From contig NZ_BMXE01000005.1 of assembly GCF_014651595.1 (NCBI RefSeq), forward strand, positions 1 to 64,000: a stretch of DNA of 64,000 bases. Direction: 5' to 3'. A program made the translations under genes and the position numbers. The notes under the pieces were generated by a model. That model had not been told where the DNA came from. It saw only the letters and a list, made by a program, of their open reading frames with translations, and made no database searches. This document shows positions 58,866-60,304 of the stretch, in pieces; within the stretch, counting starts at the first letter, position 1, and each line of letters starts with the position of its first letter. The stretch is from Pseudovibrio japonicus (lineage in GTDB: Bacteria; Pseudomonadota; Alphaproteobacteria; Rhizobiales; Stappiaceae).

Positions 58866-59025
58866 AGCTTCTTGTGCCAGACCTCCTGTAATTCCTCGGT
58901 TTTGCTGGTGCGGTGCCGCCACGTCTTTGGGATGCTATCGTTCCCCCAGCGCAAAGAGTATTGACAAATCTTTCGTGTGAAGGCATGAAACTCGCAATCT
59001 ATTTATTGGGAAAGAGTTACGCGGA

Positions 59026-59160
59026 ATGTTCCTTCGCAAGACCGACACAACGAAATTCATGCGCACTGCGGCGAAAACCGCAGGTATGATGTCGGCTGCA
59101 AAAGTGATCGCGAAGACTACCAAGACAATCACCACGAAAACGACCAAGACCACCGTCTAA
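59026..59160 (+). CDS. Thr/Lys-rich leader peptide upstream of asd
   Basis: 44 codons, ATG 59026 to TAA 59158-59160. Composition by count: 14 Thr, 8 Lys, 4 Met, 2 Ile, so 28 of 44 residues are end products of the aspartate pathway. The last fourteen codons read TTKTITTKTTKTTV, similar in style to the E. coli ThrL leader. Asd starts 106 nt downstream. A ribosome slowing at these codons could change the folding of the RNA at 59161-59266. It might instead be a small basic protein. The ribosome binding site is weak (AAAGAG 12 nt upstream, GCGG nearer). Confidence 0.6.
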   Translation: MFLRKTDTTKFMRTAAKTAGMMSAAKVIAKTTKTITTKTTKTTV

Positions 59161-59266
59161 GGTGCCTCTCTTTCCCGCGCTCTCCCCCGGGACGGAGGGC
59201 GCCAGAGGGCTCACCGGGTGCAGTCAGCCTCCGGAGCCAGCGGGGGAGACGAAGAGGACAAAACCA
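59161..59266 (+). promoter_or_regulatory. Leader RNA of asd with alternative pairings
   Basis: TCTCCCCCG (59181-59189) can pair perfectly with CGGGGGAGA (59241-59249), closing a stem next to the asd ribosome binding site GAAGAGG (59251-59257). GGCTC (59208) and GAGCC (59234) form a stem inside it. An exclusive alternative pairs GGTGCCTC (59161-59168) with GAGGGCGCC (59195-59203), with one bulged G. No T-run follows, so translational rather than Rho-independent control is more likely. Confidence 0.5.
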
Positions 59267-60304
59267 ATGGGTTATAAGATTGCGATTGCAGGTGCTACCG
59301 GCAATGTAGGTTCGGAGATGCTGGATATTCTGGCAGAGCGTGGGTTCCCGGCAGATGAAGTGATTGCATTGGCATCTCGCCGTTCTCAGGGCAAAGAGAT
59401 TTCCTTCGGTGACAAAACACTCAAAGTTCAGGCGATGGAGAATTTCGACTTCTCTTCCGTTGATATCTGCCTGATGTCTGCTGGCGGTTCCATCGCCAAA
59501 GAGTGGGCGCCGAAGATTGCTGCTAAGGGCTGTGTTGTCATCGATAACTCATCCGCATGGCGCTATGATGCAGATGTTCCGCTGATCGTGCCTGAAGTGA
59601 ACGCGGATGACATTGTTGACTTCAAAAAGAAGAACATCATAGCAAACCCGAACTGTTCCACCGCGCAGCTGGTTGTAGCTCTGAAGCCTATTCACGAGCA
59701 GGCTGGCATCAAGCGCCTTGTCGTGTCCACTTACCAGTCCGTATCCGGCGGCGGTAAAGAAGCGATGGACGAGCTGTTCAACCAGACCCGCGCTGTATAT
59801 GTGAATGATCCGATCGTGCCTGAGAAGTTCACCAAGCGCATTGCGTTTAACGTGATTCCGCACATCGACGACTTCATGGAAGATGGTTACACCAAGGAAG
59901 AGTGGAAGGTTCTGGCCGAGACCAAGAAGATGCTCGACCCGACCATCAAAGTTACTTGTACTGCTGTTCGTGTGCCTGTGTTCGTTGGTCACTCTGAGTC
60001 AGTTAACATGGAGTTGGAGAACCCGCTTTCTCCTGAAGAAGCACAGGACATTCTGCGTGAAGCACCTGGTATTCTTGTTGTCGATAAGCGTGAAGACGGT
60101 GGCTACGTCACTCCTTACGAATGTGCTGGTGAAGACGCGACTTACGTTTCCCGTATCCGCGAAGATGCAACCGTTGAGAATGGCCTGAACATGTGGGTTG
60201 TTTCCGATAACCTGCGTAAGGGTGCTGCTTTGAATGCTGTTCAGATCGCTGAGGTTCTGGTGAACCGTGGCCTGATCACACCAAAAGCAAAAGCAGCTGC
60301 ATAA
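59267..60304 (+). CDS. asd: Aspartate-semialdehyde dehydrogenase
   Basis: 345 residues. NADP-binding IAGATGNVGSEML is at the N terminus, SAGGSIAKEW follows, the catalytic Cys is in NPNCSTAQLV (about residue 130), and STYQSVSGGGKEAMDEL with the C-terminal GHSESVNMELE complete the active site. It reduces aspartyl phosphate to aspartate semialdehyde, the branch point to Lys, Thr, Met, Ile and cell-wall diaminopimelate. The ATG follows GAAGAGG at 9 nt. The upstream leader ORF suggests control by amino acid supply. Confidence 0.95.
   Translation: MGYKIAIAGATGNVGSEMLDILAERGFPADEVIALASRRSQGKEISFGDKTLKVQAMENFDFSSVDICLMSAGGSIAKEWAPKIAAKGCVVIDNSSAWRYDADVPLIVPEVNADDIVDFKKKNIIANPNCSTAQLVVALKPIHEQAGIKRLVVSTYQSVSGGGKEAMDELFNQTRAVYVNDPIVPEKFTKRIAFNVIPHIDDFMEDGYTKEEWKVLAETKKMLDPTIKVTCTAVRVPVFVGHSESVNMELENPLSPEEAQDILREAPGILVVDKREDGGYVTPYECAGEDATYVSRIREDATVENGLNMWVVSDNLRKGAALNAVQIAEVLVNRGLITPKAKAAA

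Follow-up and report, generated by a model that had tools for sequence, protein, structure and literature searches.

A candidate threonine- and lysine-sensing leader peptide before asd in Pseudovibrio japonicus and other Alphaproteobacteria

What is the role of a short reading frame crowded with threonine and lysine codons that stands directly before asd? Asd is the branch-point enzyme of the pathway to Lys, Thr, Met and Ile, and to the cell wall precursor diaminopimelate as well. The question is raised by the window, a 64,000-nucleotide stretch of Pseudovibrio japonicus DNA, for which a sequence-only reading had proposed a leader of asd sensing several amino acids. The ORF is located at 59026-59160 on the forward strand, with 44 codons and a stop, and its translation, MFLRKTDTTKFMRTAAKTAGMMSAAKVIAKTTKTITTKTTKTTV, contains 14 Thr, 8 Lys, 4 Met and 2 Ile, the same counts as that reading had given. 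The gene downstream is indeed asd, encoding aspartate-semialdehyde dehydrogenase (59267-60304, forward strand; TIGR01296 asd_B, 475.2 bits against a cut-off of 324.2), and the 106 nt claimed between the two are recovered between the end of the leader stop (59160) and the asd ATG (59267). The putative regulatory codon run, KTTKTITTKTTKTTV, occupies 59113-59157 on the same strand, where Thr or Lys takes 13 of the last 15 codons, and its 3' end adjoins the stop codon at 59158-59160. When the last 15 residues of every ORF of 15 codons or more, from either strand of the window, are ranked (n=1234), this tail comes first with 13 of 15, the next best having 8. Upstream, a -35-like box TTGACA is found at 58961-58966 (+), belonging to a presumed promoter shared by leader and asd. 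A box TTGAC[AT] occurs 60-260 nt 5' of the leader stop in 86 of 87 genomes of the window's family, against 5.6% of mononucleotide shuffles, and therefore the leader and asd are probably on one common transcript. The asd gene itself is preceded by a Shine-Dalgarno-like (SD) AAGAGGA at 59252-59258 (+).

Elsewhere in the window's genome, the region before hom has a best tail of only 2/15 Thr/Lys. The motif ACNAARACNACNNNNTRA occurs three times in this genome and its reversed control seven times, so that the motif by itself is at chance level; the other two matches end ...TKTTT. Reading frames ending ...STKTTT and ...SPTKTTT are found on contigs C3 (L357) and C8 (L359) of the same genome.

We then present the conservation of the leader, taking throughout at least 7 Thr/Lys among the last 15 residues as the threshold for a tail. 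Within the window's family, asd is found in all 87 genomes searched, from seven genera, and all 87 have such a tail 5' of the orthologous copy, always in a short ORF on the same strand whose stop lies about 96-147 nt before asd, a distance that for loci fetched by position is read 1 nt too long. The controls give about 1 in 1740 dinucleotide shuffles (0.0006) and none of 87 reverse complements. The tails usually end ...TTKTTA or ...KTTV, with Thr at position -2 in 87/87, Thr at -3 in 85/87 and Lys at -4 in 79/87. All of ACC, ACG, ACA and ACT for Thr, and AAA and AAG for Lys, are used in the run, the third positions varying while Thr and Lys are kept; such kept residues with free third codon positions argue for translation of the ORF. 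The N-termini and lengths of the peptides vary freely among the genera. Two genomes also carry Asd paralogues with 42-43% identity to the window's Asd (G021:C135, L110; G038:C1, L109), and the regions upstream of these have best tails of 6 and 4 of 15, under the threshold.

Beyond the family, 120 genomes of the order were searched, of which 119 have asd, four of them being in the window's family, and 88 upstream regions were obtained from the other 115. Tails reaching the threshold are detected before asd in 49 of the 88 regions, the remaining 39 genomes falling below it; one locus (G142) has merely 138 nt of upstream sequence. For the other orders of the class, 192 genomes gave 175 with asd, 172 of them outside the order, and in 67 regions taken from the higher-scoring end, nine reach the threshold, in six families, and 58 do not. 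None of the 1760 and 1340 dinucleotide shuffles and none of the 88 and 67 reverse complements, for order and class respectively, reaches it. Among named loci nearest the Sinorhizobium Asd, 73 of 80 have the tail, or 69 of 76 without four Roseibium-type loci, which are excluded from the Rhizobiaceae-type set and are already included in the family set. The remaining seven of the 80 are of an Agrobacterium-like type ending ...TAKTTIKTV, with 6/15 Thr/Lys; these leaders (L319, L322, L324, L325, L327, L332 and L333, ...RITAKTTIKTV) look as if the run were eroding or Ile had been gained. The named Methylobacterium, Ruegeria and Sphingomonas loci are without such a tail, with best values of 2, 4 and 1 of 15. 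The peptides found at the same place beyond the family can be very unlike each other, for example MSVIVTKTTTTTAKRTVTATVA and ...MMSTAKTKTTG. The sequence-only reading had proposed, as a check, to look for conservation of codon content rather than of residue order, and this is the pattern seen in the family, the order and the named loci, the content near the stop being conserved and the N-terminus variable. Among the loci collected, L315, in a record titled MAG: Arenimonas sp., has an asd product 90% identical to the Sinorhizobium protein and a Rhizobiaceae-type leader, and is probably a mis-binned or mislabelled contig. At three leaderless loci of other orders (L142, L145 and L166, in G391, G324 and G342 respectively) the end of another gene, which we take to resemble leuB, lies closely 5' of asd, and there asd may be co-transcribed with it.

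A leader of this kind has been suggested before. In Sinorhizobium meliloti, SEP5 was reported as a small ORF in the 5' region of an "aspartate dehydrogenase" gene, with six codons for Thr and three for Lys close to its end; it is translated, and was called "possibly a leader peptide" and "conserved only in Sinorhizobium" (PMC10117765, 2023). In S. meliloti Ak57, an ORF 113 nt before asd ends ...KTTAKTTTKTV, with exactly six Thr and three Lys, and because its composition and place match the published description we infer that it is SEP5. The Thr/Lys-rich 3' end of the SEP5 type is found in the asd 5' region of S. meliloti Ak57, Sinorhizobium K101, Rhizobium NLR16a, Shinella PSBB067 and the window. 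The Ak57 record carrying asd (CP090106.1, L269; 3.7 Mb) is titled plasmid pSymB and may be the chromosome under a wrong name. The earlier remark that the leader had not been described is thus only in part correct, since that paper had already suggested a leader function for SEP5 in 2023 (PMC10117765); beyond it, our literature search brought up no other paper on an asd leader, and a text search for 'asd' in PMC1273637 and PMC12218461 gave no occurrence.

Which amino acids could be read by such a leader? In the order set, Lys+Thr is the top of all 190 residue pairs by the number of loci with at least 8 of 15 (42 of 88), followed by Ala+Thr (38), Gly+Thr (21), Ile+Thr (18) and Met+Thr (15). A first count of Met and Ile was partly circular, as the leaders had been chosen for Thr and Lys; the following count agrees with it. 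Tails were chosen by Thr alone, giving 56 of the 155 loci outside the family, and the non-Thr residues of the tail were compared with those of the rest of the peptide. The share of Lys is 0.281 in these tails against 0.035 in the rest, about 8-fold, while Met (0.042 against 0.042, 1.0-fold) and Ile (0.047 against 0.039, 1.2-fold) are not enriched, Ala is at 1.3-fold and no residue except Lys exceeds 1.4-fold. Conversely, in nine tails chosen by Lys alone, Thr is enriched 7-fold. Sensing of Met and Ile is accordingly not supported, and the amino acids sensed look to be two, Thr and Lys, not four. Of the multi-amino-acid sensing leader first proposed, then, the leader with conserved Thr/Lys content near its stop is supported, and the part concerning Met and Ile is not. 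We consider it likely, with good confidence from the comparisons of genomes, that the ORF is a leader peptide of asd through which the ribosome senses Thr and Lys.

It is also of interest how the signal would reach asd. Between leader and gene, five segments are recognized on the forward strand, those of helix S1 from A:C pairing comparisons and those of helix S2 from B:D comparisons. Segment A (59161-59176), the 5' strand of helix S1, begins directly after the leader stop; segment B (59177-59188) is the loop of the S1 hairpin, in which 59182-59188 can pair with D; segment C (59189-59203) is the 3' strand of S1; a variable linker (59204-59241), with a possible hairpin of its own, is the least conserved part of the alignments; and segment D (59242-59248), the 3' strand of helix S2, lies 19-25 nt before the asd ATG. 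Segment A is pyrimidine-rich, C is purine-rich, and so is D, just 5' of the SD. Folding of the post-leader region as a single sequence gives several rival structures, because A resembles B and C resembles D. Across the sequences compared, S1 begins at most 1 nt from the leader stop in 191 of 208, and B nearly fills the S1 loop, the gap being 0-3 nt on its 5' side in 205 and 0-1 nt on its 3' side in 199 of the 208, while S2 connects this loop with a segment whose median distance to the asd start codon is about 20-27 nt. The order and the short loops of the predicted S1 and S2 are those of an H-type pseudoknot.

The pairing A:C is more stable than shuffles (z<0) in 34 of 38 groups. In Roseibium, the sister genus (n=40), 99.8% of its cells are paired, with three double-changed pairs, against at most 59% and no double changes when the pairing is slid as a control; the number of further pair types in S1 is ordinary there (111/500 shuffles). 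In the window's genus (n=14), 98.5% of the cells are paired with no double change, and the observed score is reached by 165 of 500 shuffles. For S2, pairing of the S1 loop with the region before the SD has z<0 against shuffles in all 30 testable groups; the counterpart of D is invariant in 40 of 40 Roseibium sequences, and hence no covariation of S2 appears within that genus. An alignment-free comparison of pairing within the own genome and between families was made in 32 groups. A:C is stronger at home in 26-27 of the 32 (p 5e-6 to 4e-5), and the loop with the region of the ribosome-binding site (RBS), that is S2, in 24-25 (p 1.5e-4 to 7e-4), these p values being taken over groups that are related to one another and are not independent cases. 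Control pairings show no own-genome excess, with 13-17 of 32 for A with the RBS region, 11-12 for the loop with the linker, 15-20 for A with the linker and 14-16 for the leader with the RBS region. A weak excess for B:C (21/32, p 0.02) comes from windows overlapping by 8 nt and is not clean. The numbers of groups differ with the test, being 38 for the A:C z test (32 plus six class groups), 32 for own against cross-family pairing, 31 for the z test of A with the RBS region (f26 too short), and 30 for the B:D z test, the fold energies and the loop gaps (f11 and f26 too short). On the whole, S1 and S2 are shown by this comparison to co-evolve as predicted helices between families of the order. 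As to stability, nested folds and the pseudoknot hardly differ, the median difference being -0.6 kcal/mol over the 30 groups before any pseudoknot penalty, and thermodynamics therefore picks neither. When the region before the SD is left free to choose its best partner in each of 212 sequences, the outcome is mixed, C being taken in 99, the S1 loop in only 56, A in 51 and the leader in 6.

From these observations a mechanism may be proposed, by which the leader would adjust expression of asd according to how well the tRNAs for Thr and Lys, both end products of the Asd-dependent pathway, are charged. If either amino acid runs short, the ribosome would stall on the run, and its footprint would keep the 5' strand of S1 unpaired; the S1+S2 fold would then stay open and leave the asd start region free. 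When both are plentiful, the ribosome would terminate and leave, the fold would close, and translation of asd would be damped. In this direction of the switch, it is a stall close to the stop that would open the fold. For the window's order, the fold as a translational output is the likeliest output in our judgement, and we put it forward tentatively.

Unlike in the window's order, some of the leaders in other orders stand before an intrinsic terminator, which is found between leader and asd in five of nine class-level leaders, from four families (f77 2/2, f83 1/1, f175 1/1 and f136 1/2). There the same kind of leader would have a transcriptional output. In all four families the best partner of the post-stop bases overlaps the terminator hairpin, as for an antiterminator. 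In f77, f136 (G379) and f175, the hairpin stays in the lowest-energy fold with or without masking of the post-stop bases, and the antiterminator is thus suggested by complementarity alone. An intrinsic terminator is found in none of 16 sequences of the window's genus, and no convincing one in the window's order, where the scan flagged one of 45 sister-genus sequences and one of three in f22. It seems that the sensor is kept and the output differs between orders. The broadest statement, which we would offer with some reserve, is of an asd leader common across the class, in which the charging state of two tRNAs, those for Thr and Lys, would gate an RNA pseudoknot linking the leader stop to the asd RBS, translational in Hyphomicrobiales and with a terminator output in other orders, so that evolution would have exchanged the output while conserving the sensor.

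The serious rival to the pseudoknot takes S1 and S2 in turn, with S1 as anti-sequestor and B:D as sequestor, so that A is free when the ribosome stalls early in the run (ON) and masked when it stands at the stop (OFF), the logic of classical attenuators. The terminator-type leaders of other orders speak for it, as the segment after their stop shows complementarity to one portion of the terminator hairpin, a relation that calls for helices used in turn. So does the masking of the first bases after the stop, where the nested folds of some sequences retain the B:D pairing, which argues against the direction of the switch proposed above. However, B nearly fills the S1 loop, with the small gaps already given, a layout that allows both helices together; and the Thr/Lys codons reach the last codons of the leader, so that stalls would often mask A. 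We regard the in-turn arrangement as rather unlikely, while taking it seriously.

Control by the leader could also end in Rho-dependent termination, if a ribosome stalled near the stop covered a C/U-rich stretch and so protected the transcript. The post-stop segment is C/U-rich by eye in 80 distinct family sequences, and the order is without a convincing intrinsic terminator, as described above, both of which would suit Rho. But this segment is taken up by a covarying helix, which speaks against a loading site, and the partner of S2 near the SD is left unexplained, which makes such an output improbable.

Slightly less probable still is a simple sequestration of the SD, of erm type, in which the post-stop segment pairs with the asd SD as long as no stalled ribosome lies over the segment. 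The window's lowest-energy nested fold contains just this pairing, and when the leader and the 15 nt after its stop are masked, the SD is predicted to become more accessible in four family genera (means 0.32 to 0.81, 0.19 to 0.92, 0.40 to 0.87 and 0.38 to 0.59) and over all 145 sequences (0.54 to 0.68). Against this, the accessibility predicted for the largest genus is unchanged by masking (0.75 to 0.74), A pairs with the RBS region no more stably than in shuffles (mean z -0.24, 31 groups), and this pairing is not stronger within than between genomes, as seen in the control above, with 13 of 31 for A and the SD alone. No covariation is seen, in the comparison of own with cross-family groups, for a direct pairing between the SD region and either A or B. 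Direct sequestration, derived from the nested fold, was our first structural model, and it failed the composition and cross-genome tests.

That the small protein has a function of its own and stands before asd for other reasons is very improbable, for although translation of SEP5 is reported in S. meliloti and the tagged protein was recovered from the soluble fraction (PMC10117765), the N-terminus and length of the leader are not conserved, Pfam and NCBIfam give no family for the leader of the window or of S. meliloti, and a protein search up to E 10 finds no second copy in the window's genome.

If the reading as a leader sensing Thr and Lys is true, the joint reading of the two would explain how a large bacterial group tunes the shared Asd step. 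Such a leader is hard to detect by similarity search because mainly the codon content is kept, and the judgement of SEP5 as genus-specific is a warning for catalogues of small proteins. A single sensor serving two kinds of output would also show how attenuation can switch, over evolutionary time, between a transcriptional and a translational form. The principle of sensing is not new, and for one species a leader has been suggested in print; judging by our literature searches, the novelty lies in its occurrence in many families, its limitation to Thr and Lys, the co-evolving fold and an output of two kinds.

Among known systems, the ThrL leader of Gammaproteobacteria (Rfam Thr_leader) likewise places a run of Thr codons before genes of the aspartate family. 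It reads Thr and Ile before thrA, whereas the window's leader would read Thr and Lys before asd. No Rfam match reaches the gathering score in eight loci, and the window region has only four matches up to E 5, all below gathering and to unrelated families. The attenuators of trp, his and ilv have regulatory codons followed by RNA structure, as is proposed here; a terminator is found in five of the nine class-level asd loci and none convincing in the window or its order. In the translational attenuator of ermC, the position of the ribosome on a small ORF controls access to the start of the next gene. Its signal is an antibiotic, while that of the asd leader would be tRNA charging, and a direct SD pairing like that of ermC is predicted at asd in some genera, unsupported by comparison. 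There is a likeness also with SEP5, a small ORF in the asd 5' region with a Thr/Lys-rich end like that of the window's leader (PMC10117765). That paper describes SEP5 as restricted to Sinorhizobium, and its passages on SEP5 contain no RNA structure (PMC10117765), whereas here the codon run and the predicted fold are found in many families.
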